In this document: in pieces, positions 2,030-21,800 of the stretch
Position numbering within the stretch: position 1 is the first letter of the stretch
How the letters are laid out: each line of letters starts with the position of its first letter
Origin: Aliiruegeria haliotis
GTDB lineage: Bacteria; Pseudomonadota; Alphaproteobacteria; Rhodobacterales; Rhodobacteraceae
NCBI RefSeq assembly: GCF_003003255.1
Contig: NZ_PVTD01000004.1
Span: 1 to 64,000, forward strand
Direction: 5' to 3'
Length of the DNA: 64,000 bases
The notes under the pieces: generated by a model
What the model was told of the DNA's origin: nothing
The model's input: the letters and a program-made list of their open reading frames with translations, nothing else
Databases searched by the model: none
Made by a program: the position numbers and the translations under genes

Positions 2030-2563
2030 ATGCAGGGCATGAGTGAACGGGACTACGCCGCGCATGCCGGGCTCTCCCGCGGAGCGATCCAGAAGGCGAA
2101 ACGCACCGGACGGCTAGCGCTCTTCGCAGATGGCTCGATCGATGCGGCGGCCTCCGATGCCCGCCGCGCGGAGACAACCGATCCCGATCAGCAGAGGCGC
2201 TCTGTCGGAGAGTCTGCGCTTTCCGGTCCCGGCGAGAGCAGCTCCTACCTCAAGGCCCGGACGGCGCTCACGGTTTACCAGGCGCAGGAACGGCAGATCG
2301 CAATTCAGAAGAAGAAGGGCGCGCTGGTCGACCGCGCCCGGGCCGAGGCGCTGGTGTTCCGTCTCGCCCGGCAGGAACGCGATGCCTGGGTAACCTGGCC
2401 GGCGCGGGTGGCGGCGCTGATCGCGGCGCAGGTCTCGGCCGAGTGCGAGAGCGTCTCCGGTGCATCACTCGCGATCGACACCGCGATCATGCAGAGGGTG
2501 CTGGAAGCCCATGTCCGGGAACAACTCGACGCCCTCGCCGAACTCCGGGTCTCGCTCGGGTGA
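2030..2563 (+). CDS. Terminase small subunit (Nu1-like)
   Basis: 177 residues. An N-terminal helix-turn-helix of the Nu1/phage-element type (MSERDYAAHAGLSRGAIQKAKRTGRL) should bind the packaging site. A central helical region (ERQIAIQKKKGALVDRARAEALVFRL) probably mediates oligomerisation and contact with the large subunit. The start at 2030 has TTGGAG 7 nt upstream; an in-frame ATG at 2039 is the alternative. The reading frame is open far upstream, but that section is a shadow of the minus-strand genes. It overlaps the large terminase by 53 bp, as usual for lambda-type packaging pairs. Confidence 0.8.
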   Translation: MQGMSERDYAAHAGLSRGAIQKAKRTGRLALFADGSIDAAASDARRAETTDPDQQRRSVGESALSGPGESSSYLKARTALTVYQAQERQIAIQKKKGALVDRARAEALVFRLARQERDAWVTWPARVAALIAAQVSAECESVSGASLAIDTAIMQRVLEAHVREQLDALAELRVSLG

Positions 2564-4550
2564 CCCCGATGACCTGAGCGGGATCGACCAGGGTTTCGAC
2601 GGCGCCGACGACATCCTGCGGTCCTGGCGTCGTGGCCTGCGGCCCGATCCGGATCTCACGGTTTCCGAATGGGCCGACCGGCATCGCTGGCTCTCCTCCC
2701 GCGCCAGCGCCGAGCCCGGCCGCTACCGCACGGACCGCACGCCCTACCTGCGGGAAATCATGGATGCGCTCTCGCCGAGGCATCCGGCGCAGCGCATCAG
2801 CTTCATGAAGGCCGCCCAGGTCGGCGCCACGGAGGCCGGTAACAACTGGGCCGGCTTCGTGATCCACCACGCGCCGGGACCGATGCTGGCGGTGCTGCCG
2901 ACCGTGGAGATGGCCAAGCGCGCCTCGCGCGGGCGGCTCGATCCGCTCATCGCCGAGAGCCCGGTGCTGCGGGATCGGGTGACACCGGCCCGTTCGCGCG
3001 AGGCCGGCAACTCGATGCTCTCAAAAGAGTTTCCGGGTGGCATCCTGGTGCTGACCGGGGCGAACAGCGCCACCGGCCTGCGCTCGATGCCGGCGCGCTA
3101 TATCTTTCTCGACGAGGTCGATGCCTATCCGGCCTCGGCCGACGAGGAAGGCGATCCGGTCGCGCTCGCCGAGGCGCGGACCACGACCTTCGCGCATCGC
3201 CGGAAGGTCTTCATGGTCTCGACACCGACCATCCGCGGCCTCAGCCGGATCGAGCGGGAATACGAGGCGAGCGACCAGCGGCGCTACTTCGTACCCTGTC
3301 CGCATTGCGGCCACATGCAGTGGCTGCAGTTCGAACGCCTGCGCTGGGAAAAGGGCCGGCCGGAGACCGCCGCCTATCATTGCGAGGGATGCGAGCAGCC
3401 GATTGCCGAGCACCACAAGACCGCCATGCTGGCCTCCGGCGAATGGCGGGCAACCGCGACCTCGGCCGATCCGACGGCCATCGGCTTCCACATCTCGGCG
3501 CTCTATTCGCCGGTGGGCTGGAAGTCCTGGGAGCAGATCGCCCGGGAATGGCTGGCCGCCCAGGGTTCGGAAGACATGCTCAGGGCGGCGCGCAACACGC
3601 TGCTAGGCGAGACCTGGGTCGAGAGCGGCGAGGCGCCGGAATGGCAGCGGCTGGCAGAACGGCGCGAGCCATGGGACACCGCCGGCCTGCCGAATGGTGT
3701 GCTGTTCCTGACCGCCGGCGCCGACGTGCAGAAGGACCGGATCGAGGTCGATATCTGGGGCTGGGGCCGCGGGCTGGAAAGCTGGCTTGTCGATCACATT
3801 GTCATCGAGGGTGGGCCGAACCGGGCGGAGGCCTGGGCAGAGCTGACGAAGCTCCTCGGCCGCACCTGGGATCTCGCCAATGGCTCGGTGATGCCGATCG
3901 CGAAGCTCGCCATCGATACCGGCTACGAGGCCGCGGCGGTCTATGGCTGGACCCGGGCGCAGGGCTTCGGCCAGGTCGCACCGGTCAAGGGCCTCGAAGG
4001 CTTCAACCGGGCGACGCCGGTTTCCGGCCCCACCTTTGTCGACGCCACGATCGGCGGAAGGCGGCTGCGACGCGGCGCCCGGCTTTGGTCGGTCGCCACC
4101 TCGACTTTCAAGATCGAGACCTACCGCTTCCTGCGGCTGGAGCGGCCCGACGATGCCGAGCGGGCCGCGGGGATCTGCGACCCACCGGGGACCATGCACC
4201 TGCCGGACTGGATCGACAGCGAGTGGATCCGCCAGCTGGTGGCCGAGCAACTGGTCACGGTGCGCAATCGGCGCGGCTACGCCCGGCAGGAATGGCAGAA
4301 GATCCGCGAGCGGAATGAGGCGCTGGACACGAGAGTCTACGCCCGGGCTGCCGCCTGGATCATGGGCGCCGATCGCTGGGACGAGGCCACATGGCGCCAG
4401 CTCGAGGAACAGGCGGGGACAGAAAGCCGGGTGATCGACACACAACCGAGCCCCGGACCTGCGGAGCAGGATCAACAACCACGCGCCGGCACGCCGGTTA
4501 CGCCACGGCGACGCCAGCGGGCCTATACGCCGCGCTTCATGAGGGACTGA
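2511..4550 (+). CDS. Phage terminase large subunit (GpA family)
   Basis: 679 residues. The N-terminal ATPase has a divergent Walker A (KAAQVGATE, about 100-108), Walker B with catalytic acid (RYIFLDEVD, about 196-204) and the coupling motif VSTPT (about 237-241). A CPHC...CEGC four-cysteine zinc site (263/266/291/294) sits in the middle. The C-terminal nuclease domain carries acidic residues in DVQKDRIEVDIWGWG and AIDTGYEAAAVY. It cuts concatemeric DNA and drives it into the prohead through the portal. The ATG at 2511 has GGAAG upstream and is preferred over an earlier in-frame ATG at 2460. First gene of the lambda-ordered head block. Confidence 0.93.
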   Translation: MSGNNSTPSPNSGSRSGDPDDLSGIDQGFDGADDILRSWRRGLRPDPDLTVSEWADRHRWLSSRASAEPGRYRTDRTPYLREIMDALSPRHPAQRISFMKAAQVGATEAGNNWAGFVIHHAPGPMLAVLPTVEMAKRASRGRLDPLIAESPVLRDRVTPARSREAGNSMLSKEFPGGILVLTGANSATGLRSMPARYIFLDEVDAYPASADEEGDPVALAEARTTTFAHRRKVFMVSTPTIRGLSRIEREYEASDQRRYFVPCPHCGHMQWLQFERLRWEKGRPETAAYHCEGCEQPIAEHHKTAMLASGEWRATATSADPTAIGFHISALYSPVGWKSWEQIAREWLAAQGSEDMLRAARNTLLGETWVESGEAPEWQRLAERREPWDTAGLPNGVLFLTAGADVQKDRIEVDIWGWGRGLESWLVDHIVIEGGPNRAEAWAELTKLLGRTWDLANGSVMPIAKLAIDTGYEAAAVYGWTRAQGFGQVAPVKGLEGFNRATPVSGPTFVDATIGGRRLRRGARLWSVATSTFKIETYRFLRLERPDDAERAAGICDPPGTMHLPDWIDSEWIRQLVAEQLVTVRNRRGYARQEWQKIRERNEALDTRVYARAAAWIMGADRWDEATWRQLEEQAGTESRVIDTQPSPGPAEQDQQPRAGTPVTPRRRQRAYTPRFMRD

Positions 4551-4767: not shown

Positions 4768-6240
4768 ATGGCATTCGACTATGTTCGCCAGCTGCTCACC
4801 GCGGTGACCGGTGGATTTGACGCCGCGCAAGGTCACAGGCGGCTGCGTGGCTTCCGGGCCTCCCGGGCGCATGTGAACACGCTGATCGCCGGAGCCGGCG
4901 CGACCATCACCGCCCGGGCGCGATGGCTTGCCCGCAACAACGGCTATGCCGCGAATGCCGTCGAATCCTTCGCCAGCAATGTCGTCGGCGACGGGATCAA
5001 GCCATCGTCGCGGATCGAGGATGCGGCTCTCAAGGAAGAGGTGCAATCGCTCTGGCTCGCCTGGACCGACGAGGCGGATGCCGAAGGTGTCACCGATTTC
5101 TACGGGCTGCAGCGCCGGGCGGCCCGCGAGGTGTATCTCACCGGCGAAGTCTTCCTGCGGATCCGGTCGCGCCGCCCTGAGGACGGCCTGACAGTACCGC
5201 TGCAACTGCAGATGCTCCCTTCGGAGATGTTGCCGCTCGATCTCAACCGGGAACTGCCGGGCGCTGGATCAATCCGGCAGGGGATCGAGTTTGACGGGAT
5301 CGGCCGGCGCGTCGCCTATCACTTCCTGCGCCGGCATCCCGGTGACATGACCGAGCCCGGGCTGGCCGGCGAGACGGTCCGGGTTCCGGCGGAGGATGTG
5401 ATCCATGTGCTGGACCCAAGCGAGGCCGGACAATTGCGCGGGGTCTCGCGTTTCACCCCGGCGATCGTGAAACTCTTCACGCTGGATCTCTACGACGATG
5501 CCGAGTTGGAGCGGAAGAAGACGGCGGCGATGTTCGCGATGTTCATCACCTCGCCGGCGCCGGAGACACCGCTGGAGCCCGCCGAGGAGGATCTTGAGGT
5601 CGAACCCGGCCAGGTCGTCCGTCTCGATCCCGGAGAGGATGTCTCGACGCCTGCCACGCCGGATTCCGGCTCGACCTATGAGCCCTTCCAGTACCGGACG
5701 CTGCTGCAGATCTCGGCCGCGCTGGGCATTCCCTACGGGTATCTCACCAATGACACCGCGAAGGGCAACTTCTCGAATACGCGGATCTCGCTCGTCGACT
5801 TCCGCCGCCGGATCTCGGCCTGGCAACATGGCGTGCTGGTCTACCAGATGTGCCGGGCCGTCTGGACCCGCTGGATGGATCTCTCGGTGCTCTCCGGCGC
5901 GCTCGACATCCCGGACTACGATCAGAACCGACGCGCGTATCTCGCCTGCGACTGGCTGCCGACAAAGTGGGACTGGGTCGATCCGATGAAGGATGCCTCG
6001 GCCGAGATCCTGCAGATCGAGGCCGGGCTCAAATCCCGCACGCAGGCGCTGTCGGAACGCGGCTACGACGCCGAGCAGGTCGATCGCGAGATCGCCGCTG
6101 AGAGAGACCGCGAGCAGGCACTGGGCCTCGACTTCCGACGTCCGGGATCACCGGCGCAGGGGCCGTCAGAAACCGGCAGCGAAGATCAAAACGAAGAGAC
6201 GGAAACGGACGACAAGCGCTCGCCAGAGGAGAAGGCCTGA
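4768..6240 (+). CDS. Phage portal protein (lambda gpB family)
   Basis: 490 residues. The N-terminal portal core begins with AGATITARARWLARNNGYAA and contains VESFASNVVGDGI and AAREVYLTGEVFLR, characteristic of the lambda-family portal. The stem/wing region includes DVIHVLDPSEAGQLRGVSRF and IPYGYLTNDTAKGNFSNTR. The acidic, Glu/Arg-rich tail (about 440-490) is probably disordered. It forms the dodecameric DNA entry channel. Length is close to lambda B (533). After its stop the strand flips to the toxin-antitoxin pair, which separates B from C. Confidence 0.92.
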   Translation: MAFDYVRQLLTAVTGGFDAAQGHRRLRGFRASRAHVNTLIAGAGATITARARWLARNNGYAANAVESFASNVVGDGIKPSSRIEDAALKEEVQSLWLAWTDEADAEGVTDFYGLQRRAAREVYLTGEVFLRIRSRRPEDGLTVPLQLQMLPSEMLPLDLNRELPGAGSIRQGIEFDGIGRRVAYHFLRRHPGDMTEPGLAGETVRVPAEDVIHVLDPSEAGQLRGVSRFTPAIVKLFTLDLYDDAELERKKTAAMFAMFITSPAPETPLEPAEEDLEVEPGQVVRLDPGEDVSTPATPDSGSTYEPFQYRTLLQISAALGIPYGYLTNDTAKGNFSNTRISLVDFRRRISAWQHGVLVYQMCRAVWTRWMDLSVLSGALDIPDYDQNRRAYLACDWLPTKWDWVDPMKDASAEILQIEAGLKSRTQALSERGYDAEQVDREIAAERDREQALGLDFRRPGSPAQGPSETGSEDQNEETETDDKRSPEEKA

Positions 6241-6245
6241 TGCCT

Positions 6246-6644
6246 TCAGGATTCGAGCAGTTCGACCCCTGGGATGCGGGCGGCTTTCCTATCGAAAGTC
6301 ACCAGCGGAACGGCATCCGCCCGATGTGCCGCCGCAGCGATCATCAGGTCGGCAAAGCCGAAGCCCCCATCGCGATACTGGAAGACGGCCCGGCCGGTGT
6401 CGTCAGCCTGTTCAACCTCGATCTCGGTGGCCGACAGCAGGCCTTCGAGCGCGCCGGCGACTTCGGCGCGGCTGAAGCCATAGGCGCGCTCGAGCACCCA
6501 GACGAGTTCCACCATGACCTCGCGGCTGATGAAGCCGGGATCACTCTGGCGGAGCCCGTTCATGAAGTCCGCGGCGACGCGGGCCTGATCAGGATCGTCC
6601 TGGGTCAGGAACCGCACCAGCACATTGGTGTCGATGGCGATCAC
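6246..6644 (-). CDS. PIN-domain toxin (VapC-type ribonuclease)
   Basis: 132 residues. The PIN fold carries the expected acidic quartet: Asp5 in MIAIDTNVLV, Glu46 in VMVELVWVL, Asp99 in GFGFADLMIA and Asp118 in LVTFDRKAA. VapC toxins cleave tRNA or rRNA with Mg2+. The start is GTG, in a GTGA overlap of 4 bp with the antitoxin stop, so the pair is translationally coupled. It lies in reverse orientation 5 bp after the portal stop, as cargo inside the phage head operon. Confidence 0.9.
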   Translation of the reverse strand: MIAIDTNVLVRFLTQDDPDQARVAADFMNGLRQSDPGFISREVMVELVWVLERAYGFSRAEVAGALEGLLSATEIEVEQADDTGRAVFQYRDGGFGFADLMIAAAAHRADAVPLVTFDRKAARIPGVELLES

Positions 6645-6886
6645 GCGTCGGAATCCTCAGCGGCGCCACCGGCAATGGCTTCATCCATCTCGTCGAGGCT
6701 GACCGGTTTCCGGCCCGGCCGGGCCAACAGGCCGGCAAGCCCGCTGACGGGTTGTACCTTCAGCAGCCGGACCTCGCCGTCGAGGATGACATACCGGACC
6801 CGATCGCCACTCGCGAGACCAAGCGCCCGCCGCACGTCCTTCGGCAGGGTCGTCTGGCCCTTCATCGTCACTGTCGATTCCTGCAT
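6641..6886 (-). CDS. AbrB/MazE-type antitoxin of the VapC pair
   Basis: 81 residues. The N-terminal swapped-hairpin AbrB domain (res. 1-48: STVTMKGQTTLPKDVRRALG then SGDRVRYVILDGEVRLL) binds DNA. The C-terminal segment (PVSLDEMDEAIAGGAAEDSDA) is acidic and flexible, the usual toxin-neutralising tail. It is the first gene of the two-gene unit. The promoter and repeated half-sites just upstream suggest autoregulation. Confidence 0.88.
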   Translation of the reverse strand: MQESTVTMKGQTTLPKDVRRALGLASGDRVRYVILDGEVRLLKVQPVSGLAGLLARPGRKPVSLDEMDEAIAGGAAEDSDA

Positions 6887-10740: not shown

Positions 10741-11232
10741 CTATGCCGCGTTGAAGTCGAGGATACGCGTCAGAACGATTGTCGCATGTTCGAAGTTCCG
10801 CTGCTGATCACGCATTTCATATGCCCATTTGATCCCGTGAAAGAGGTTATTTCGCAAGCGAAAGGCAATGATGAGTAGTGCTTTGGCGATCTCGCCCGGC
10901 ACGACGTCATCTTCCAACAAAACGGCCTCGACGAGTTCACGTCGGTCGTTCCTTCTGAAGTTCAGCCTCTGAAACTTGTGGTTGGTTCCACCGTCTGACA
11001 CGTATCTCTGTCGAAAATGCAGTAGAGCATTGGCAAAGGGTTCAGCTGATCTGAAGTTTTGTTCGTTCTGATCGACAAAACGCACGATGGCATTCGCGTT
11101 GGCATTTGTCGCAAGAGCTCGCGCCTCGAAGACGCTCCAAACGATAGAAAAGCCGGCTACGGCAGATCGCTCTCCGTCTGAGAGTTCCTGGTAACCCGGT
11201 TGAGTTCGTTCAAGCCATTCTTCTGCAAGCAT
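10741..11232 (-). CDS. Putative HEPN-domain protein (cargo gene)
   Basis: 163 residues from MLAEEWLERT; the frame extends to 11355 but that part overlaps the tail terminator gene. The protein is all-alpha. Near the C-terminus it carries RLRNNLFHGIKW, in which Arg127-x4-His132 matches the Rx4-6H signature of HEPN RNases, and its first half is a helical bundle. HEPN domains act in toxin-antitoxin and anti-phage systems as RNases. The coding stretch is visibly richer in A+T than its neighbours and lies in reverse between the Z-like and U-like genes, which points to separate acquisition. No antitoxin partner is visible. The family call is an inference from the motif. Confidence 0.6.
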   Translation of the reverse strand: MLAEEWLERTQPGYQELSDGERSAVAGFSIVWSVFEARALATNANANAIVRFVDQNEQNFRSAEPFANALLHFRQRYVSDGGTNHKFQRLNFRRNDRRELVEAVLLEDDVVPGEIAKALLIIAFRLRNNLFHGIKWAYEMRDQQRNFEHATIVLTRILDFNAA

Positions 11233-11290
11233 CACGCACCCAAATTCATCCCGTGCACACAATAACCAAGATCTCAGGTTTCTAAAACCA

Positions 11291-11710
11291 ATGCCCACCC
11301 ACCGCGAAACCATCCTCGCCGCGCTGCATTCGCGGCTCTCGGCGCTGCCCGCCACTGCCCTGCGCGGCGAGGTGCTGCCGGAACGCGTCCCGGCCGACGG
11401 CCTGCTGATCCTGCGCGACGGCGAGCCGGGGGAGCCCGAGGTGACGCTGTCGCCGCTCGCCTACCATTACCAGCACCGGGCCGAGATCGAGGCGGTCGTG
11501 CAGGGTGCCGAGCGTGACGCGGGCTTCGACACGCTATGCAGCAGCATAAGCACATCGCTCGCGACTGACCGGACGCTGGGCGGGCTCTGCGACTGGGTCG
11601 AGGCGGAAGCGCCCCGGCCTGTCGACCTGCCGGTCGAGGGTGCTGCGAGCCTGAAGGCGGCGGTCATACCCGTCATCCTGCACTACACCACCGCCGACCC
11701 GCTCGGCTGA
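11291..11710 (+). CDS. Tail terminator/completion protein (U-like position)
   Basis: 139 residues. The start MPTHRETILAALHSRLSALP, followed by RVPADGLLILRDGEPGEPEV and HRAEIEAVVQGAERDAGFD, is the pattern of alphaproteobacterial phage tail terminator proteins, which cap the tail tube. The C-terminal AAVIPVILHYTTADPLG strand fits this fold. No clear SD precedes it, perhaps because the HEPN insertion moved the region. Its place before the tail tube gene matches lambda U-V. Confidence 0.65.
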   Translation: MPTHRETILAALHSRLSALPATALRGEVLPERVPADGLLILRDGEPGEPEVTLSPLAYHYQHRAEIEAVVQGAERDAGFDTLCSSISTSLATDRTLGGLCDWVEAEAPRPVDLPVEGAASLKAAVIPVILHYTTADPLG

Positions 11711-11734: not shown

Positions 11735-12673
11735 ATGGCACGAGCCCAGGGGGCGCGGGCGCAGATGGCGCTTGCGTTCGAGACCGTCTATGGCACGCCG
11801 CCCGCGAGCGGCTTCACCAAGATGCCCTTTGCCAGCACGACGCTTGGTGCCGAGCAGCCGCTGCTGAACTCGGAGCTTCTGGGCTATGGGCGCGATCCGC
11901 TGGCGCCGATCAAGGACGCGGTGACGGCCGACGGCGATGTCGTCGTGCCGCTCGATGCCGAGGCATTCGGCTTCTGGCTGAAGGCGGCTTTCGGTGCACC
12001 GACTACGACCGGCACCGGCCCCTGGACGCATGAGTTTCAGTCCGGCGCCTGGACGCTGCCCAGCCTCTCGATCGAGACCGGAATGCCGGAGGTGCCGCGC
12101 TATGCGATGTATTCAGGTTGCGTGCTCGACCAGCTGACCTGGCAGATGCAGCGCTCGGGACTGCTCACTGCAACGGCGCGCCTGGTGGCGCAGGGCGAGA
12201 CGGTGGACACAGCCACCGCTGCCGGTACGCTCGCCGACCTGGAACTGAATCGCTTCGGCCATTTCAACGGGGCGATCACGCGGAACGGCTCGGCGCTGGG
12301 CAACGTGGTCTCGGCCGATATCACCTATGCCAACAATCTCGACCGGATCGAGACGATCCGTGACGATGGGCGCATCGATGGGGCGGACCCGTCCATCGCC
12401 GCGCTGACCGGCTCGATCGAGGTGCGCTTCGCCGACAGCACGCTGGTGACCCAGGCGATCAATGGTGAGGCCTGCGAGCTGGAGTTCGGTTACGCACTGC
12501 CCTCGGGCGAGAGTTTCACCTTCACCGCGCACGCCGTCTACCTGCCGCGCCCGCGGATCGAGATCTCGGGCCCGCAGGGCGTGCAGGCCACATTCGACTG
12601 GCAAGCCGCGCGCGACAGCGTGGTCGGCCGGATGTGCAGCGCCACCCTGATCAACAACACGGAGACGTTCTGA
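11735..12673 (+). CDS. Major tail tube protein (gpV-like)
   Basis: 312 residues. It begins ARAQGARAQMALAFETVYGT and continues with LNSELLGYGRDP, DAEAFGFWLKAAFG and EVPRYAMYSGCVLDQLTW, all typical of long-tailed phage tail tube proteins. The C-terminal part (EISGPQGVQATFDWQAARDS) is a beta strand repeat closing the domain. SD AGGAGAA lies about 6 nt before the ATG. Its stop overlaps the start of the next gene (TGATG). It polymerises into the tail tube around the tape measure. Confidence 0.85.
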   Translation: MARAQGARAQMALAFETVYGTPPASGFTKMPFASTTLGAEQPLLNSELLGYGRDPLAPIKDAVTADGDVVVPLDAEAFGFWLKAAFGAPTTTGTGPWTHEFQSGAWTLPSLSIETGMPEVPRYAMYSGCVLDQLTWQMQRSGLLTATARLVAQGETVDTATAAGTLADLELNRFGHFNGAITRNGSALGNVVSADITYANNLDRIETIRDDGRIDGADPSIAALTGSIEVRFADSTLVTQAINGEACELEFGYALPSGESFTFTAHAVYLPRPRIEISGPQGVQATFDWQAARDSVVGRMCSATLINNTETF

Positions 12674-13110
12674 TGCTCACGCTCGATCTGACGAATGAAC
12701 CGCGCTGGCATGACCTTGCCCCCGGCGTCCGGTTGCAGTTGCGCCCGCTGACCACCGCGCTGATGGTGGCGACGCGCAGCGATCCTGACGTCGAGGCTGT
12801 ACACGAGGAGGCCTCCGACGAGGAGCGCGCGGTGGCCTTCGCAAAGGCGCTGGCCCGGCGGGCGGTGCTCGTCTGGGAAGGTGTCGGCGACGCCGACGGC
12901 AATGCCATCGAGCCCAGCTCCGATGCCATCGACGCGCTTCTCGACATCTGGCCGATCTTCGAGGCCTTCCAGCTGACCTACGTCTCGAAGGGCCTGCTAC
13001 TGGAACAGGAAAAAAACGCCTCCGCGCTCTCGCCGAATGGTCCTTCGGTGGGGGCGACCGATATTGCAGCGCCTGTGCAGGGCACTGCGACGACTGCCCC
13101 GCAAGGCTGA
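12673..13110 (+). CDS. Tail assembly chaperone G
   Basis: 145 residues. The globular N-terminal 115 residues (LTLDLTNEPRWHDLAPGVRL, then a helical part with LDIWPIFEAFQLTYVSKGLL) look like phage tail assembly chaperones. The last 30 residues after the A-rich run are low-complexity Ser/Pro/Thr/Ala, as in the non-frameshifted G protein of lambda. The start ATG overlaps the tail tube stop. It lies directly before the tape measure operon segment, the lambda G/T position. The heptamer at 13011-13017 probably diverts a fraction of ribosomes into the next ORF. Confidence 0.8.
   Translation: MLTLDLTNEPRWHDLAPGVRLQLRPLTTALMVATRSDPDVEAVHEEASDEERAVAFAKALARRAVLVWEGVGDADGNAIEPSSDAIDALLDIWPIFEAFQLTYVSKGLLLEQEKNASALSPNGPSVGATDIAAPVQGTATTAPQG
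13011..13017 (+). promoter_or_regulatory. Candidate programmed -1 frameshift site A AAA AAC
   Basis: In the G frame the codons are GAA-AAA-AAC, so the last A of GAA starts a canonical X-XXY-YYZ slippery heptamer. After a -1 slip on AAC the frame continues from 13017 without a stop through 36 codons into the ATG at 13125 and on to 13337. The fusion would be 221 residues: 115 of G, 36 of linker and 70 of T. The linker contains a C-x2-C-x3-C-x2-C cluster (13065-13097). The T ORF has no SD before its own ATG, which supports expression through the slip. Confidence 0.75.
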
Positions 13111-13124
13111 ACGAACCGCTCACA

Positions 13125-13337
13125 ATGGAAGGTTGGCAGGTCTGGGATCTGGTCGGCCGCCTCGGTGGCCAGCTCCGGGTTCTGCCCGGTGCTGTCATCG
13201 GCTGGGATCTGGCCGCCGCGCTTGCACTCGCCGATGCGCTCGGAGTGCCGCCGGTCGCAGCAGCCGAACTGCTGCCCGTCATCGAAGCGGTGATGGTGGC
13301 CAAACTCAACGAGCAAATGGATCACGCCAATGGCTGA
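13125..13337 (+). CDS. Tail chaperone T segment (DUF7697-like), probably made as G-T fusion
   Basis: 70 residues from its own ATG, but open upstream to 13017 in the same frame. Conserved-looking sequence begins before the ATG (CPARLNEPLTMEGWQVWDL), so the ATG is unlikely to be the true start. It contains EGWQVWDLVGRLGGQLRVLP and a helical tail (AAAELLPVIEAVMVAKLNEQ). By analogy with lambda GT, the T part recruits the tail tube protein to the tape measure. It overlaps the tape measure start by 8 bp. Confidence 0.75.
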   Translation: MEGWQVWDLVGRLGGQLRVLPGAVIGWDLAAALALADALGVPPVAAAELLPVIEAVMVAKLNEQMDHANG

Positions 13338-15495
13338 GAAACGCGTTTCTGTCCGCCTTGCTGCGGTCGGTGGCCGACAAGTGCGCGCCGAGCTGGAAGG
13401 TGTCGGCGAGGCCGGTGCCCGGGGTTTCGGACGGTTGTCGCGTGAGATGGAGACTGCGAATGTGCGGATGGCCGGGTTTTCGCGCCGCGTGAAGGTGGCA
13501 GCTGCCGCGGCGGTTGCTGCGGCAACAGCGGCCGGTGTCGTCATGGTGCGGTCGGGACTCCAGACCGTCGATGCACAGGCCAAGCTCGCGCAGTCCCTCG
13601 GGACCACCGTGGCCTCGATCCAGACGCTGGGGCGCGCGGGCGAGTTGGCCGGTGTCTCCATGTCCGGGATCGAACAGGCGACCAAGGACCTGACCCGCCG
13701 TCTGAGCCAGGCAGCGGCCGGAGGCGGACCGGCGGCGCAGGCGCTGGAGCGGCTGGGGCTTTCGGCCTCCGACCTGCTGGAGCTGCCGCTCGACGCACGC
13801 GTCGGGGCGATCAACGCCGCAATCGAGGAGTTCGTGCCGGCCGCCGAGCGCGCGGCCGTCGCAGGCCAGCTCTTCGGCGAGGAAGGCTCCATCGCCATAT
13901 CGCGCATCGACACCGCAACGCTGCGCCAGGCGACCGAGGACGTGCGTGCCTTCGGGGTCGTGGTTTCCGAGCAGGATGCCGACCGGATCGAGCGCACGAA
14001 CGATGCCATCTCCCGGCTTGGGCTAATCTGGCGGGGCCTGTCGAACCAGCTTGCGGTCGCCGCAGCCCCGGCGCTGGAGGCCGTGGCAGACGCCATGGCG
14101 GCGGTGGCCAGTCGAACCGGTCCGCTTGGCCGAGCCATCGCCGGCCTCTTTGACAATATTGGCCGTCTGACCACCTACGCCGCCACTTTTGCCGTGTTTC
14201 TGGCCGGGCGCTGGGTCGCCGGGCTTGCCGCGGCAGCGCTCTCCGTCCGCGGCCTCGCCACTGCTCTGGTTGTCCTGCGCGGGGCGCTGATCCGTACCGG
14301 GATCGGCGCGCTCATCGTTGGCGCCAGCGATTTGGTTTACCAGTTCACGAAGCTCGCGCAGGGTGCTGGAGGTTTCGGGAAGGCGCTCGAGTTGATGGGC
14401 AATGTGGCGAGAGGGGTCTGGGACGGGATCCGCGCCACCACGCTCTCCTTGGTCGACGACTTCCGGGCCGTGCGGGCGGACGTGGAAGCAATCTGGCTGA
14501 AGCTGATGGCCTTCCTCTCCCAGAAATGGGCCGACTTCCTCGGCCAGATCGGACCGACCTTCAATGCCGTCGCCGAGGAGATCGGCTCGGAGACCCGGAT
14601 CGACTGGTTCGGCGCCATGTCCCGCGCCTCGATGCTAGAGCATGGTGCTGCCAATGCCGGATCCCAGGCCGAGAGCTACCGGGCACGGGCTGCCGACACG
14701 CGGGCCGGTGCCTTCGACGGCGTCGGCACCGCCATGCAGGCGCTGCGGGATGCGATGACCGGCAGTGACGCGGAGGGCGAGGCTGCCATCGACCAGGCCA
14801 CCGATGCCGTGGATCGGATGAACGACGCGCTGGACACTTCGGCTCAGGCCGCGCGCGGCGCGGGCGCGGCCGGACGCGCAGCTGGAAGGGAAACCGCCGA
14901 CGGAGCGGCGAAAGCCGCCACCGGTTGGCAGGCGGCCAACTCGACGCTCAGCGACTATGCCGGCAAGGCCCGCGATATCGGGGCCGATATCGGCCAGAGC
15001 CTCGTCGGTGCCTTCCAGTCAGCCGAGAGCGCGGTGGGCGAGTTCGTCAAAACCGGCAAACTCGACTTCCGGGACCTTGTGACCTCGATGATTGCGGATC
15101 TGGCCAAGCTCGCAGCGCGGAAGTTCATCCTCGGACCGATCGCCAGCGCGCTGGGCGGGGTGCTGGGCAGTGCCGGCGGTGTGTTCGCCAATGTCCTGCA
15201 TAGCGGCGGAATGGTCGGTTCGGCGGGATCGTCCCGGATGGTGCCAGCACTCGCCTTTGCCGGTGCCCCGCGCATGCACAGCGGTGGCACGGTCGGACTG
15301 CGCCACGACGAGGTGCCGGCGATCCTGCAGCGTGGCGAGCGGGTGCTCTCGCGTCGGGAAGCGCAGGACTACGGCGCTGGCGGCGGAGTGACGATCAACA
15401 TCAATACCCGCGACGCCGAGAGTTTTCGGCAGTCGCGAACTCAGGTCGCCGCGGACATAGCCCGGGCGGTCTCGCTGGGGCGGAGGGGCATGTGA
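13330..15495 (+). CDS. Phage tail tape measure protein (lambda gpH-like)
   Basis: 721 residues. The N-terminal helical region with RQVRAELEGVGEAGARGFG is typical of tape measures. Hydrophobic segments lie at about 55-72 (AAAAAVAAATAAGVVMV) and in the region about 275-325. The C-terminal part carries the lambda-type signature (VGEFVKTGKLDFRDLVTSMI then KFILGPIASALGG) and a Gly-rich MHSGGTVGLRHDEVPAILQR motif common near tape measure ends. It sets tail length and is injected ahead of DNA. At 721 residues it implies a short to medium tail. Confidence 0.9.
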   Translation: MAEKRVSVRLAAVGGRQVRAELEGVGEAGARGFGRLSREMETANVRMAGFSRRVKVAAAAAVAAATAAGVVMVRSGLQTVDAQAKLAQSLGTTVASIQTLGRAGELAGVSMSGIEQATKDLTRRLSQAAAGGGPAAQALERLGLSASDLLELPLDARVGAINAAIEEFVPAAERAAVAGQLFGEEGSIAISRIDTATLRQATEDVRAFGVVVSEQDADRIERTNDAISRLGLIWRGLSNQLAVAAAPALEAVADAMAAVASRTGPLGRAIAGLFDNIGRLTTYAATFAVFLAGRWVAGLAAAALSVRGLATALVVLRGALIRTGIGALIVGASDLVYQFTKLAQGAGGFGKALELMGNVARGVWDGIRATTLSLVDDFRAVRADVEAIWLKLMAFLSQKWADFLGQIGPTFNAVAEEIGSETRIDWFGAMSRASMLEHGAANAGSQAESYRARAADTRAGAFDGVGTAMQALRDAMTGSDAEGEAAIDQATDAVDRMNDALDTSAQAARGAGAAGRAAGRETADGAAKAATGWQAANSTLSDYAGKARDIGADIGQSLVGAFQSAESAVGEFVKTGKLDFRDLVTSMIADLAKLAARKFILGPIASALGGVLGSAGGVFANVLHSGGMVGSAGSSRMVPALAFAGAPRMHSGGTVGLRHDEVPAILQRGERVLSRREAQDYGAGGGVTININTRDAESFRQSRTQVAADIARAVSLGRRGM

Positions 15496-15556: not shown

Positions 15557-16183
15557 ATGGCATTCCATGAGGTCCGGTTTCCGGACAATATCAGCCGTGG
15601 CGCCCGGGGCGGGCCGGAGCGAAGAACGCAGATCGTCGAGCTCGCCTCCGGCGACGAAGAGCGCAATGCCAGCTGGGCCAATTCGCGTCGCCGCTACGAC
15701 GTGGCCTACGGTATCCGGCGCGCCGATGATCTGGCCGCGGTGGTTGCCTTCTTCGAGGCCCGCAACGGCCGGCTGCACGGCTTCCGCTTCCGGGACTGGG
15801 CGGACTACAAATCCTGCCTGCCCTCGCAGAGCCCGGCTCCCACCGATCAGGGGATCGGCACCGGCGATGGCGAGACCTCGGGGTTCCAGCTGCTCAAGAC
15901 CTACCCGTCCGGGGCACAGGCCTGGAGCCGGTCCATTGCCAGGCCCGTCTCCGGTTCGGTTCAGATCGCGCTCGATGGCGTCGAGCAGGTTTCCGGCTGG
16001 TCGGTCGATACGACCTCTGGTCTCGTCACTTTCGATGCGTCACCCGGCGCTGGCGTGCTCGTCACCGCCGGCTTCGAATACGACGTGCCGGTCCGCTTCG
16101 ACAGCGACACGCTCGATGTGACGCTGGATATCGAGCGACTGGGATCGATCACCTCCATTCCGATCGTGGAGATCCGGCGATGA
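15557..16183 (+). CDS. DUF2460 distal tail protein (GTA gp12-like)
   Basis: 208 residues. It starts AFHEVRFPDNISRGARGGPE and contains RRYDVAYGIRRADDLAAVVA, FRFRDWADYKSC and TYPSGAQAWSRSIARPVSGS, the DUF2460/TIGR02217 family found as gene 12 of the Rhodobacter capsulatus GTA, where it forms the distal tail ring. This marks the switch from lambda-like to GTA-like tail genes. It overlaps the next ORF by 4 bp (ATGA). Confidence 0.9.
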   Translation: MAFHEVRFPDNISRGARGGPERRTQIVELASGDEERNASWANSRRRYDVAYGIRRADDLAAVVAFFEARNGRLHGFRFRDWADYKSCLPSQSPAPTDQGIGTGDGETSGFQLLKTYPSGAQAWSRSIARPVSGSVQIALDGVEQVSGWSVDTTSGLVTFDASPGAGVLVTAGFEYDVPVRFDSDTLDVTLDIERLGSITSIPIVEIRR

Positions 16184-16527
16184 GTGAAGAGACGGGCTTT
16201 ATCGCCACCGTGCTGCGCGATCTCACGACCTCGACTGCGGTGATCCTCGCGGCCTGGGGCGCGCTGGGTGGGGCCACCAATGCACTCACGACGAAGATGC
16301 ATCTGCGGGACGCGCTGCGGCACATCCTGCTCGGCGGGCTGATCGCGGCCGGCATGGGCAGCCTGTCTATGGCCGTCATCACCACCTGGATGGGGCTTCC
16401 ATCGGCGGCGATCCCGTCCGGCGGCGCGGCTGGCTCGGCGGCCTATCTGGTCGGGGTGTTCGGTCCGGCCTTCATCGAGGTGATCCTCGTACGACTACGT
16501 GGCGCGACGGGGGATGGAGATGAATGA
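16180..16527 (+). CDS. Putative holin
   Basis: 115 residues with three predicted membrane segments: around 16-36 (STAVILAAWGALGGATNAL), 47-68 (ILLGGLIAAGMGSLSMAVI) and 78-102 (SGGAAGSAAYLVGVFGPAFI). It has a short N-terminus and a charged C-terminus (RLRGATGDGDE). Three helices and adjacency to a lysozyme gene fit a class I holin, which permeabilises the inner membrane at lysis. I see no named family signature, so the call rests on topology and context. Confidence 0.65.
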   Translation: MSEETGFIATVLRDLTTSTAVILAAWGALGGATNALTTKMHLRDALRHILLGGLIAAGMGSLSMAVITTWMGLPSAAIPSGGAAGSAAYLVGVFGPAFIEVILVRLRGATGDGDE

Positions 16528-16651
16528 GCTGCTCCGCCGCGCAGGTGCCATCCGCTGCGACATCCCCGATCCACGCGAGGCTTTCGGCCACCGTCTCCGC
16601 GTCGGTCTGGTGGTCGCGGCATTCATCCTGATCCTCTCACTACTCGGGTAA
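16520..16651 (+). CDS. 43-aa single-pass membrane peptide in the lysis cassette
   Basis: A short ORF starting MNELLRRAGAI and ending in a hydrophobic helix (VGLVVAAFILILSLLG) directly before the TAA. The N-terminal half is charged with one cysteine. It overlaps the holin-like gene by 8 bp and ends 4 nt before the lysozyme ATG, so the region would be unusually tight if it were non-coding. A GGAG abuts the ATG with no spacer, so translation may depend on coupling to the upstream gene. It could be a holin partner or antiholin. Confidence 0.5.
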   Translation: MNELLRRAGAIRCDIPDPREAFGHRLRVGLVVAAFILILSLLG

Positions 16652-16655
16652 TCCC

Positions 16656-17279
16656 ATGCATATGACGGACCGGGGGCTCATCGCCCTCATCCGGCACGAA
16701 GGACTCGTGCCGGGACCTTACCTCGATGTCCGTGACATCTGGACCTTTGGCATCGGACATACCGCAGCGGCTGGCGATCCTGATCCAGCGTCTCTCCCGC
16801 GCGGAATGCCGGAGAACCTTGAGGACGGTATCCGCGAGGCCTTCTGCGTGTTCCGGGCCGATATCGCCCGCTATGAGCACGACGTCTGCAATGCCATTGC
16901 CGTGTCGGTTGAGCCGCATGAGTTCGATGCGCTGGTCTCGTTTCACTACAACACCGGCGGCATCGCACGGGCAGACCTCACGCGCCGCCTGAACGCGGGC
17001 AACCGGGACGCTGCGGCGCAGGCCTTCCTGAACTGGCGGCGACCAGCGGCGATCATCCCGCGCCGGGAGGCGGAGCGGATTCTGTTCCTCGAAGGTCGCT
17101 ATCCCGCCGGAACCATTCCCGTCTGGTCTGTCGATGCCGGCGGCCGGGTGGATTTCTCGCGCTGTTCGCGACGGCTCACCGAGGCCGAAGCGCTCGCATT
17201 CCTGCGACCCGTGCCCGAACCGGCCGGGGTTCTCGCCCGGCTCCGGGCCTTTCTTTCCTTGCTCATCAACAGGAGATGA
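16656..17279 (+). CDS. Endolysin, GH24 lysozyme family
   Basis: 207 residues. The T4 lysozyme-type catalytic triad is Glu15 (LIRHEGL), Asp24 (PYLDV) and Thr30 (DIWTFGIGHT), with family spacing. VSFHYNTGGIARADLTRRLN and NWRRPAAIIPRREAERILF follow as in GH24 enzymes. It hydrolyses the glycan bonds of peptidoglycan. The C-terminal extension ends in a hydrophobic stretch (VLARLRAFLSLLINRR), possibly a membrane tether. No N-terminal signal is present, so release should depend on the holin. An in-frame ATG at 16662 is an alternative start. Confidence 0.9.
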   Translation: MHMTDRGLIALIRHEGLVPGPYLDVRDIWTFGIGHTAAAGDPDPASLPRGMPENLEDGIREAFCVFRADIARYEHDVCNAIAVSVEPHEFDALVSFHYNTGGIARADLTRRLNAGNRDAAAQAFLNWRRPAAIIPRREAERILFLEGRYPAGTIPVWSVDAGGRVDFSRCSRRLTEAEALAFLRPVPEPAGVLARLRAFLSLLINRR

Positions 17280-17281
17280 CT

Positions 17282-17512
17282 ATGCGATATGTCCTTCCCG
17301 CTTCCCTGACCTGGTGGAGCGGCCTGGCGTCGGTGCTGACCGGCATCGCGGCGCTGGTGCTGCCCGAAGGTGATGCGATATCAGAACTGACCGTCCTGGT
17401 TGCGCGACTGGCGAATGCCGGCGATGCCTCTCCCGCCACGCTGATCTTTGTCGGACTGGGTCTCATTGGCTTGCGCGACCGGATTGAGCGCGGGCTGGCC
17501 GGAACGCAATGA
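17282..17512 (+). CDS. Small two-helix membrane protein of the lysis cassette
   Basis: 76 residues with two hydrophobic segments, about 8-28 (SLTWWSGLASVLTGIAALVL) and about 53-66 (ATLIFVGLGLIGL), and a charged C-terminus. AGGAG at 17271-17275 is 6 nt before the ATG at 17282 but directly next to the ATG at 17276, which favours 17282. It overlaps the DUF2163 gene by 4 bp. It may be a second holin-like protein; there is no recognisable family. Confidence 0.6.
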   Translation: MRYVLPASLTWWSGLASVLTGIAALVLPEGDAISELTVLVARLANAGDASPATLIFVGLGLIGLRDRIERGLAGTQ

Positions 17513-18393
17513 AGGCGCTGGGCACCGCGCTCCAGGCCCATCTCGACGACGGCACCACGACGCTGGCGTGGTGCTGGCGCATCACCCGCAGCGATGGCGT
17601 GGTTCTGGGCTTCACCGATCACGACCGGGATCTTGCCTTCGACGGCACCGGGTTCGAACCGGAGAGCGGCTTTGCCGCCTCAGAAGTGCGTTCTGCCTCG
17701 GACCTGTCCGTCGACGCGCAGGATGCGGAGGGCGTGCTGAGCTCGGACCGGATTACAGAGACGGACATCCGTGACGGGCGCTGGGACAATGCCGATGTCG
17801 AAGTCTGGCGGGTGAACTGGGCCAACACCAGCCAGCGCGTTCTGATGCGCCGGGGCGCCATCGGCCAGATCCGTCGCGGGCGCCTCGCTTTTGTCGCCGA
17901 GGTGCGCTCGCTCGCGCATCTGCTGGGGCAGAATGTCGGGCGCAGCTTTCAGGCGACCTGCGATGCGGTCGTCGGCGATTCCCGCTGCGGGGTGGATCTG
18001 GACGATCCTGCTTATCGGAGTGCCGGCGTTGTCACCGGTATCTCACTGGATCGCGCCTTCACCGCTTCCGGCATCGGGAGCTTTGAGGCGGGCTGGTTTA
18101 CGTTCGGTACGGTGGAATGGACCTCCGGCGCCAATGCTGGCCGGCGGGCAGAGGTTTCCGGCCATGGGCTGGACGGCGGGGATGCATCTGTCAGCCTGCT
18201 CGAAGCGCCGGTCCTGCAAATCGCAGAGGGAGATGGCTTCGTCATTCGTGCGGGCTGCGACAAGCGAGTTGCCACCTGCGCAGACCGCTTCGCCAATGCC
18301 GTCAACTTCCGGGGCTTTCCGCACATCCCCGGCCAGGACACCATTCTGCGCTACGCCACGAGCGATGGCGGTCACGATGGGAGCGTGTTGTGA
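17509..18393 (+). CDS. DUF2163 baseplate hub protein (GTA gp13-like)
   Basis: 294 residues. DUF2163/TIGR02218 hallmarks: TTLAWCWRITRSDGVVLGFT near the start, DHDRDLAFDGTGFEPESGF, GVLSSDRITETDIRDGRWDN, LGQNVGRSFQATCDAVVGDS, and a C-terminal cysteine-containing segment (IRAGCDKRVATCADRFANAV then NFRGFPHIPGQD). In the R. capsulatus GTA the equivalent gene encodes a baseplate hub protein. It is coupled to the peptidase gene by a GTGA overlap. Confidence 0.92.
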   Translation: MKALGTALQAHLDDGTTTLAWCWRITRSDGVVLGFTDHDRDLAFDGTGFEPESGFAASEVRSASDLSVDAQDAEGVLSSDRITETDIRDGRWDNADVEVWRVNWANTSQRVLMRRGAIGQIRRGRLAFVAEVRSLAHLLGQNVGRSFQATCDAVVGDSRCGVDLDDPAYRSAGVVTGISLDRAFTASGIGSFEAGWFTFGTVEWTSGANAGRRAEVSGHGLDGGDASVSLLEAPVLQIAEGDGFVIRAGCDKRVATCADRFANAVNFRGFPHIPGQDTILRYATSDGGHDGSVL

Positions 18394-18830
18394 GAGCCAC
18401 CGCCGACCCCGAACGGATCATCGCCACGGCGCGGTCCTGGCTCGGCACGCCCTACCACGATCAGGCAAGCGTCAGGGGCGCAGGCTGCGACTGCCTCGGG
18501 CTGGCCCGCGGTGTTTGGCGGGAGGTGGTCGGGCCGGAACCATTTCCGATGCCGCCCTATTCCCGCGACTGGGGCGAGACCGGGACGATCGAGGTGCTGG
18601 CTGAGGGTGCGCGGCGCATGATGTCGGAGATTGATCCTGCCGAAGCTGGACCGGGCGCGCTGATCCTGTTCCGCATGCAGCCCCGCGCCATCGCCAAGCA
18701 TGTCGGCATCCTGACCGGGCCTGATCGTTTCATCCATGCCTATGAGCGACTGGGTGTGATCGAGCAGCCGCTGTCGCCCGCCTGGCGGCGGCGCATTGCC
18801 TTCGCTTTCCTGTTTCCGGATCGGAGCTGA
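18390..18830 (+). CDS. NlpC/P60 cell-wall peptidase (GTA gp14-like)
   Basis: 146 residues starting at GTG (GTGA overlap with the DUF2163 stop). The catalytic residues are Cys35 in GCDCLGLARG, His104 in IAKHVGILTG and His116 in RFIHAYERLG. It corresponds to TIGR02219. Phage tail peptidases of this type cut peptidoglycan peptide bridges to let the tail tube through. The longer upstream frame belongs to the overlapping DUF2163 gene. Confidence 0.92.
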   Translation: MRATADPERIIATARSWLGTPYHDQASVRGAGCDCLGLARGVWREVVGPEPFPMPPYSRDWGETGTIEVLAEGARRMMSEIDPAEAGPGALILFRMQPRAIAKHVGILTGPDRFIHAYERLGVIEQPLSPAWRRRIAFAFLFPDRS

Positions 18831-18833
18831 GCA

Positions 18834-21800
18834 ATGGCCACCCTCGTCCTCGGCGCGGCCGGTGCTGCCATTGGCGGTTCGATCGGCGGCGCCATTCTTG
18901 GTGTCAGTGCTGCCACTATCGGCGGCTTCATCGGCTCGACCATCGGGTCCTACGTGGACAGCTGGATCATTTCCTCTCTCACGCCGGGACAGGACCAGAG
19001 TTTCACCGGCCAGCGTCTCGACAGTCTGCGGGTCACGACCTCGACCGAGGGCGCGGTGATCCCGCGCGTCTTCGGCCGGTTGCGGATGGGCACCAATATC
19101 ATCTGGGCCACCGATTTCCGCGAGAAGAAGAAAACCACCACTCAGGGTGGCGGCGGCAAGGGCGGTGGAGGTGGTGGCGGAACAAAAACCACCACCTACA
19201 CTTACTTCGCCTCCTTCGCGGTGGCGGTCTGCGAGGGGCCGATCACCGGTGTGGGGCGCATCTGGGCAGATGGCGAGCTGATGGACCTCTCCGGCGTCAC
19301 CTGGCGCTGGTATCCCGGCGACGAGGTTCAGGAGGCTGATCCTTATATTGCGGCGAAGTCGGGCGCGGAGGCCACGCCGGCCTACCGGGGCACGGCCTAT
19401 CTGGTGTTCGAGGATCTGGCGCTGGCGGGTTTCGGCAACCGCATCCCTCAGATCAATGTCGAGGTGTTCCGACCTCTGGTCGAGGCGGATACGGCAGAGG
19501 GCCTGGTGCGGGCCGTCACCCTGATCCCTGCCTCAGGCGAATTTGTCTATGCCACCGAAGCCATCCGCAAGAGCAACGGCGCCGAGAACCTCAACGCCTC
19601 ATCGGGCACGACCGACATGGTAGAGGCGCTCGACCGGCTCGAAGCCTCCGCGCCCAATGTCGAAAGCGTCAGCCTTGTGGTCTCGTGGTTCGGCGATGAC
19701 CTGCGTTGCGGGGAGTGCCGGATCCGGCCGGGCGTCGAGCTCACTTCGAAATCGACCAAACCGAAGTCCTGGCGGGTCAATGGTGTCGCTCGGGACGGGG
19801 CGCATCTGGTCAGCCGCGATGATGAGGGCCGTCCGGTCTATGGCGGGACACCGGCGGATTTTTCGGTCGTGCAGGCCATCCAGGAGCTGAAGTCGCGGGG
19901 AAAACGGGTCACTCTCTATCCCTTCCTGATGATGGATGTCCCGGCCGACAACACCCTGCCGGATCCGTATTCCGACAACGCTTCCGGGACCGGTCAACCG
20001 CCCTTTCCATGGCGCGGCCGGATCACCTGTTCGCCGGCAGTGGGCTATGCCGGCTCGGTCGACAAGACCGCCGCGGCAGCGACGCAGGTCACGGAGTTCT
20101 TCGGCGAGGCGGAGGTGTCGGATTTCTCCGTGTCAGGCACCTCTGTCAGCTGGACGGGATCATCGCTCGACAGGGGATTCCGGCGCATGATCCTGCACTA
20201 CGCGCATCTCTGCGCGGCGGCGGGGGGCGTCGATGCCTTTCTGATCGGCTCGGAAATGCGCGGCCTGACCACCATTCGCGACGGCGCGGCGAGCTACCCG
20301 GCCGTGCAGGCGCTCCGCGATCTCGCAACCGACGTGCGCGCCATCCTCGGGCCCTCCACGAAGATAAGCTACGCGGCCGACTGGTCGGAGTATTTCGGCC
20401 ACCATCCGGACGATGGCTCCGACGACGTGTTTTTCCACCTCGATCCGTTCTGGGCCGATCCGGAGATCGATTTCATCGGCATCGACAACTACATGCCCGT
20501 CTCCGACTGGCGTGACGGCTTCGAGCATGCTGATGCACAGGACGGGTGGCCGGCGATCTACGACCGCAGCTACCTGCAATCCAACATCGCCGGCAGTGAG
20601 GGGTTCGACTGGTTCTATGCCAGCGCCGCCGACCGCACCGCGCAGCTCCGCACACCAATCAGCGATGGTGCGCACGGCAAGCCATGGGTCTTCCGATACA
20701 AAGATCTGCAAGCCTGGTGGTCGAATGCACATTTCGACCGGCCCGACGGGGTTGAGAGCGGGACGCCTACTTCATGGTTGCCGCAATCCAAGCCGATCTG
20801 GTTCACCGAGCTCGGCTGTCCCGCCATCGACCGGGGCACCAACCAACCCAACGTGTTCTTCGATCCGAAGTCGTCCGAGAGCTTCACGCCGTATTTCTCG
20901 CGGGGCTGGCGGGATGACGCGATCCAGCGAGCGTACCTCGAAGCAACCTGGCTCCACTGGGGCGAGGCCACGAACAATCCGACATCGTCAGTCTATGGCG
21001 GACGGATGGTCGAAGTTTCTGAAAGTGCCGCCTGGACCTGGGATGCACGGCCCTATCCCTTCTTTCCGGAGCTGACCGATGTCTGGAGTGATGGCGAGAA
21101 CTGGCGCCTAGGCCATTGGCTCATCGGCCGGCTCGGATCCGCATCCTTACCAGCACTGGTGCGCCATATCTGCATGCGCGCCGGGCTGTCTGAGGACAGC
21201 ATCGACGTGTCCGGCCTCTGGGGCGCGGTTGAGGGCTATGCCATCACCTCGATCGAGGCCCCGCGCACTGCGCTCACAACACTTGGGCGGCATTTCGGTT
21301 TTGATGCGGTCGAGAGCGAGGGCGTGATCCGTTTCTTCGTGCGAGGGCGGGTCCCGGTCGTGACGCTCACCTTTGAGGACCTGGTGGCCGCCGGCGAAGG
21401 CGAGCCTGTCGAGTTGACCCGCGCGCAGGAAACGGAATTGCCGCAGGCCCTGAAATGGAGCATAGCGCGGGCCGATGAGGATTATGACGCGGCGGTGGTC
21501 GAGGCGCGCCGGATCACGGTCGACTCTGCACGGATCAGCAGCGAATCCTGGCCCATCGCGGTCCCGCCCGAAGAGGCGGAGCGGCGCTGCCGCCGCGCGC
21601 TGATGGAAGCATGGGTCGGGCGTGAAACGGCCACTTTCCAGCTGCCACCGTCGCGTCTCGCGCTGGATCCGGCCGATGTGGTGGAACTCGACCATGATGG
21701 GCGGCTGGCCGAGTATCGCCTGACCTCCATCGCCGACAGCGGGGCGCGACTGATCGAGGGGATCCGCCAGGATCGCGAGACAGAAGCGCTGCCGCCCGGC

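Follow-up and report, generated by a model that had tools for sequence, protein, structure and literature searches.

Gene G of the prophage tail operon in this window (the whole 64,000-nucleotide stretch of Aliiruegeria haliotis DNA that was analysed) carries a slippery heptamer near its end, and comparison of related loci makes it close to certain that a programmed -1 frameshift takes place there. The locus would be of the G/GT type of phage lambda, with a variant linker that carries four cysteines (Cys4). The initial annotation had proposed such a frameshift, joining G to a cysteine linker and T, and this proposal is supported by the slip site, by the open -1 frame and by the conservation of the amino acids that it encodes. 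It gains further support from the absence of the start at 13125 in relatives and from a downstream hairpin. The best explanation taken as a whole, a hairpin-aided G/GT frameshift with T made in the fusion only and a metal bound by the cysteines at the junction, is considered quite probable. The features concerned are as follows.

2460-4550: terminase, prophage structural operon
4768-6240: portal, prophage structural operon
11735..12673, + strand: tail tube protein (PF18906 Phage_tube_2, 1.9e-60), directly 5' of G
12673..13110, + strand: gene G, tail assembly chaperone of 145 aa (phrog_313 tail assembly chaperone, 1.7e-19)
13011..13017, + strand: slippery heptamer A AAA AAC in the zero frame, kept in relatives
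13017..13124, + strand: -1 frame linker of 36 codons, predicted in the fusion only (pN/pS 0.40 in the -1 frame)
13018..13110, + strand: zero-frame tail of G after the slip site, of low complexity, no protein-level constraint seen
13025..13056, + strand: putative stimulatory RNA hairpin (folds, synonymous-codon control and pair counts)
13065..13097, + strand: four-cysteine cluster CX2CX3CX2C (codons at 13065, 13074, 13086 and 13095)
13125..13337, + strand: T core (PF24752 DUF7697, 3e-26)
13330..15495, + strand: tape measure protein (PF09718, 1e-20; phrog_8462, 5e-158), overlapping the end of T

Gene order and slip site

The prophage structural operon in the window comprises terminase, portal, tail tube, G, T, tape measure and a distal tail module. 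G, whose product has no Pfam match at E ≤1, sits between the tail tube gene (PF18906) and the tape measure gene (PF09718), as a lambda-type G/GT arrangement requires. Phage lambda has the same order, V - G - T - H (tail tube, chaperones, tape measure), with an in-frame heptamer near the end of G, a -1 continuation into T and an overlap of T with the start of the tape measure gene. Lambda differs in its heptamer, GGGAAAG, and in having a -1 part without cysteine. The distal tail module (15557-22799) has domains of the gene-transfer-agent type, namely GTA_TIM, Rcc01698_C, DUF2460 and Phage_BR0599. Genes for a PIN-domain toxin and a PrlF/MazE-like antitoxin lie on the minus strand at 6246-6886, between the portal gene and the next structural ORF. 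Another minus-strand ORF of 204 aa (10741-11355) runs antisense to the direction of the tail operon; it has no Pfam (E ≤0.1) or PADLOC match, and the RNNLFHG near its C-terminus resembles what we take to be a HEPN-type motif.

The zero-frame codons at the slip site read GAA AAA AAC. The in-frame heptamer near the end of G was thus correctly recognized in the initial annotation, and it begins at 13011, two bases later than the start coordinate of 13009 first given. No stop interrupts the -1 frame between 12789 and 13334, which agrees with the claim of 36 stop-free codons between the slip and the ATG at 13125. The product of the slip has 221 aa, of which 115 come from G, followed by a 36-residue linker, RLRALAEWSFGGGDRYCSACAGHCDDCPARLNEPLT, and a T core of 70 residues. 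The joined part contains CSACAGHCDDC, the C-x2-C-x3-C-x2-C motif that had been read there. It should be noted here that the G+C content of the window is 64%, and that 9,671 of 17,534 36-codon stretches (55%) are open in the -1 frame of its forward ORFs of at least 150 aa. An open -1 frame was rejected as evidence on its own, since 55% of comparable stretches are open. On the other hand, the in-frame A AAA AAC is the sole case among 19,774 codons of the 64 mechanical forward ORFs (≥150 aa), and CxxCxxxCxxC has one occurrence in 19,902 residues of the -1 frames of those 64 ORFs. Across the whole window AAAAAAC is in excess, with 7 observed against 2.1 expected, and therefore the heptamer is informative only together with its frame and place.

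Related loci, selected frame and downstream hairpin

A relative of the -1 product is encoded in at least 580 cases in IMG/VR (580 of 600 among the pattern matches listed) and in at least 230 stretches of reference genomes (230 of 590 among the matches listed). The best 80 of these at least 230 reference-genome relatives, used as the named-genome set, are mostly Rhodobacterales by the genus names in their titles, with single cases such as Aurantimonas, Mesorhizobium, Roseibium, Parvibaculum and Maricaulis. A family search of 398 genomes drawn across the phylum found DUF7697 above the cut-off in 13, the window's own counted, and in 14 at E ≤0.001, one of them a chance hit. A chaperone match was obtained for 12 of 60 relatives, again with the window's own counted. 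In all, 191 loci were examined. The tallies of start codons, zero-frame tails and spacing were made on 187 of them, omitting L025, L096, L176 and L189; in L025 and L176 a second, downstream heptamer had been picked by the script. Near-identical loci are among the 187, which yield 158 different linker peptides; the cysteine cluster is present in 157 of these. L110, L217/L219 (copies of other loci) and loci with G only stand outside the counts, L104 is a chance hit and L117 is a fragment.

A canonical heptamer was found in 189 of the 191 loci (AAAAAAC in 158, GGGAAAC in 27 and AAAAAAA in 4). All but one of these 189 (188 loci) carry four or more linker cysteines; the exception, L193, is cut off by a contig end before the fourth. 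Among the 80 named-genome loci, the best of at least 230, AAAAAAC is present in 79 and four cysteines in all 80. A homologue with a stop between the slip and T, the case named at the outset as speaking against the frameshift, was found neither in the 189 loci nor among the 80 named-genome loci. A few loci depart from the pattern. L096 has DUF7697 without slip site or cysteines, and no G was found in the locus; it seems to be a decayed relative (1151-1665) that lost G and the cysteine linker through a deletion, which would have fused the tail tube gene with the T core. The AT-rich L189 (1476-1827) keeps a cysteine-rich linker and has GGGGAAG in place of a canonical heptamer. L315 has AAAGAAC at the slip site and is perhaps a decayed copy. 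L318 (1501-1818) has an intact linker with its cysteines, and its -1 product ends within the T core, at a stop after residue 51.

The two frames of the overlap were compared by pN/pS, measured on 97 distinct sequences of 107 gapless loci. Read in the -1 frame, the overlap has a value of 0.40, as against 1.34 in the zero frame and 1.45 in the third one. For the T core it is 0.29 in its own frame against 2.06 one base on, and for the body of G before the slip 0.42. The contrast of 0.40 with 1.34 indicates that it is the -1 reading that selection maintains. The zero-frame tail had been described as of low complexity, and it does consist of 30 residues rich in A, P, S, T and G; on these comparisons it looks like a by-product of the kept -1 reading. 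In 9 of 187 loci it amounts to a single codon, and in none of the 187 does it contain two or more cysteines.

It could be argued that T is a separate gene starting from the ATG at 13125 and that the heptamer and the open -1 linker merely result from GC-rich DNA. This ATG does open an ORF of 70 aa, more than half of the -1 stretches in the window are open as given above, and two cyanophage records (L084, L085) have a T start of their own annotated. Moreover, some ATG, GTG or TTG lies within 45 codons of the slip in the -1 frame in 50 of 187 loci, and therefore a T start there is not impossible in those loci. However, an ATG at the position of 13125 occurs in 1 of 187 loci only (L001, 100% identical to the -1 part of the window) and in 0 of the 80 named-genome loci (best 80 of at least 230), any ATG within those 45 codons is found in only 10 of 187, and the amino acids of the linker are conserved only in the -1 frame. 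The 20 nt that precede 13125, GGCTGAACGAACCGCTCACA, hold no Shine-Dalgarno sequence, as had been noticed before. An independent T start at 13125 was rejected because the ATG is not conserved, for which reason the T core there is probably no separate gene, and this whole account is held to be extremely improbable. In addition, a TGA in the -1 frame lies 0-1 codons before the heptamer in 16 loci (11 distinct linker peptides), and the same gene has been annotated as a joined CDS by the depositors of three Rhodobacter phages examined. The unconserved ATG, the TGA before the heptamer and the joined CDS together lead to the view that T is almost surely made only as part of GT. The two cyanophage records, of Nostoc Nsp-JY21 (L084) and Synechococcus Sc-Yong805-1 (L085), have the same translations here, and one of them labels adjacent tail genes as acyl-CoA transferase and site-specific tyrosine recombinase.

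A hairpin of 13 bp, not mentioned in the initial annotation, begins 7 nt 3' of the heptamer; 13025-13037 pairs with 13044-13056 around a six-base loop. Its energy was evaluated on 158 loci, equal to 108 distinct sequences, and 42 diverse ones were picked by hand for pair counts. All 13 pairs are kept in 58 and 12 pairs in 25 of the 108 distinct sequences. The 45 nt after the heptamer fold with a mean of -25.2 kcal/mol (108 sequences); when the same -1 peptide is recoded at random with synonymous codons, the value is -17.8 kcal/mol. The mean z of this excess over synonymous controls is -2.3, with z below -1 in 95 of 108 and above 0 in 3 of 108, and so the hairpin is stronger than codon choice explains. 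A further 19 sequences with a different linker layout gave a mean z of -2.4, with 16 of them below -1. Among 41 distinct diverse sequences, 87% of the cells are paired; sliding the partner lowers this to 45-54%. The covariation score is 0.141, and slid controls reach no more than 0.115. Pairs changed on both sides number 4 of 13, and two of six slid controls are higher (8 and 5); covariation alone would therefore not prove the hairpin. Against dinucleotide shuffles the excess is smaller (z of -1.5 over 83 nt and -2.3 over 48 nt in the window), and L154, a Methylobacterium-type sequence, folds no more stably than its shuffles (z 1.1). An Rfam search of 12600-13400 at E ≤1 gave no match.

The sequence at the slip site, GGAAAAAAAC, is a run of seven A, and slippage of the polymerase on this run during transcription could in principle also give a -1 product. 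Such a transcriptional slip has very little probability, as the slip site in 27 of 189 loci is G GGA AAC, without any long run, and a codon-phased heptamer with a hairpin 7 nt 3' of it suits slippage by the ribosome.

Linker cysteines and T core

In an alignment of 53 sequences C17, C20 and C27 are invariant and C24 is nearly so, and W8 and G13 are also conserved. The four conserved cysteines stand in CxxC-type pairs, as a zinc knuckle or Cys4 site requires. The spacing, taken over the 187 loci and the best 80 of at least 230 named-genome relatives, is mostly CX2CX3CX2C, and CX2CX6CX11C, CX2CX3CX3C, CX2CX9CX2C and others were also observed. Persistence of four cysteines while their spacing varies is what is expected of metal ligands. 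This pattern makes it probable that the four cysteines are ligands of a single structural metal ion, zinc being the likeliest, which may brace the joint where the G side meets the T core. None of the 53 members gave a convincing match to a Pfam metal-binding family; the best was Zn_ribbon_6 at 0.072 in 1 of 53.

The frameshift could also be real with the cysteines doing redox work (disulfides or a thiol switch) or holding an Fe-S cluster in place of zinc. Four cysteines in a compact loop with the tight CX2CX3CX2C spacing would suit that role. The host cytoplasm is normally reducing, which counts against it, and we infer that spacing as variable as CX2CX3CX2C, CX2CX6CX11C and CX2CX9CX2C better suits a zinc knuckle. 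A redox or Fe-S function is thus regarded as rather unlikely, and a structural zinc is preferred.

The -1 product matches PF24752 DUF7697 with 90.1 bits (cut-off 27), and 52 of the 53 aligned members match DUF7697 at E ≤0.1. PF08809 DUF1799 gives 13.8 bits in the -1 product, below its cut-off of 26. Alignment of the DUF7697 T core with DUF1799 by hhalign (probability 96.6, E 5.7e-10) points to remote homology between the two families. AlphaFold2 modelled the -1 product with a mean pLDDT of 92.8 and a pTM of 0.84, as a helix (2-18), the cysteine loop, helices 28-31, 37-47 and 49-52, strands 53-56 and 59-63, and helices 65-75 and 79-105. The cysteine cluster is placed in the model between the junction helix and the T core, and pLDDT is lowest (about 80) at residues 11-30, around the cysteines. 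A metal-stabilised hinge had been suggested as possible for this linker; this would go further than the evidence, and the model favours an ordered loop over a floppy hinge. The model of a DUF1799 relative has helices 2-9, 15-20 and 37-48, the same two strands, and helices 68-74 and 79-103. Compared by element lists, the cores agree from residue 37 on in the order and length of their elements, and the cysteine loop stands where the DUF1799 relative has a second short helix and loop. Solved structures gave no match by sequence (best E 0.48), and Foldseek gave nothing significant against the PDB (best E 4.2). Against BFVD its top match was a viral 'Tape measure chaperone' (probability 1.00, E 0.039, TM 0.61), with four more entries of that name in the first eleven; all the viral matches have E ≥0.039.

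DUF1799 chaperones of other Pseudomonadota prophages provide a close comparison. They were met in 29 places, four of which fall within the cysteine branch; 21 of the other 25 entered the tally, leaving aside L238 (near copy of L237), L243, L245 and L248 (repeat or broken copies). The same heptamers are present in 21 of 21 and the T cores are homologous, whereas four cysteines in the first 70 residues are absent in 21 of 21. A zero-frame stop directly follows the heptamer in 17 of the 21 (loci among L221-L246), and these loci have less pronounced structure downstream (mean z -0.75, with 11 of 21 below -1). HK97 gp13/gp14 is likewise an annotated -1 frameshift fusion between the major tail and tape measure genes, and differs in having one cysteine and no CxxC in its -1 open frame; a scan of the second half of gp13 found no canonical in-frame heptamer. 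Since the DUF1799 relatives have the heptamer without the cysteines, and lambda and HK97 are without the cluster, the cysteines belong to one branch and not to the frameshift as such. On these comparisons the cluster is lineage-specific. An alignment of related phages had been suggested as a check on whether cysteines and heptamer co-vary, and the DUF1799 relatives, which keep the heptamer without the cysteines, rule this co-variation out. The helper that accompanies the slip site seems to differ between the branches: a hairpin in the cysteine branch and an adjacent stop in DUF1799 chaperones. In Acinetobacter phage Loki, AAAAAAC is reported to adjoin a stop codon (PMC5313236).

The Rhodobacter capsulatus phages RcKvothe, RcFrancesLouise and RcKemmy belong to the same family, with the -1 join already annotated and with four cysteines (CDRCDGPCPDC, CDRCGDPCPDC). 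They differ from the present locus in using GGGAAAC for AAAAAAC and are about 45% identical. The frameshift is thus already known and annotated in relatives. The accessible portions of the open-access literature searched, which included PMC5009743, PMC8601537, PMC11445458, PMC7230728, PMC7911831, PMC5313236, PMC9658991 and PMC10299305, yielded no mention of cysteine or zinc clusters in tail chaperones and no description of the Cys4 linker.

Proposed mechanism and its meaning

Sequence comparison shows the slip site, the constrained -1 frame, the excess stability of the hairpin, the conservation of the cysteines and the lack of a conserved T start. In the mechanism that we propose, most ribosomes would complete G, and a presumed minority would slip back one base on A AAA AAC at 13011-13017 to give the 221-aa GT. 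The 13-bp hairpin 7 nt 3' of the heptamer would help the slip, and T would arise only within the fusion. GT would then consist of the G body, a helix, the compact four-cysteine loop and a T core of the DUF7697/DUF1799 type. Its cysteines are presumed to hold one structural metal ion, likeliest zinc, which would order the junction of the G-side helix and the T core. By analogy with lambda, G would hold the tape measure protein and T would recruit tail tube subunits. In lambda the ratio of G to GT is near 30:1, and G binds the tape measure protein and T the tube protein (PMC5009743). It is conceivable, and considered improbable, that the rare GT copies alone among the chaperone subunits carry a metal and that its loading is a licensing step for tube recruitment. 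If true, tail assembly could respond, through metal loading of GT, to the metal or redox status of the dying host.

DUF7697, a family of unknown function in Pfam, gains a likely identity as the T domain of a frameshifted tail chaperone, and for annotators this means that the two ORFs should be joined. The combination of hairpin and cysteines in one branch, against an adjacent stop without cysteines in the other, may serve as a natural experiment on how frameshifting is set. The family is large and found in prophages, the named hosts here being mostly Alphaproteobacteria. In it, the joint between the two halves of GT carries a strongly conserved Cys4 loop confined to the recoded product, which shows that such a joint need not be a plain spacer.
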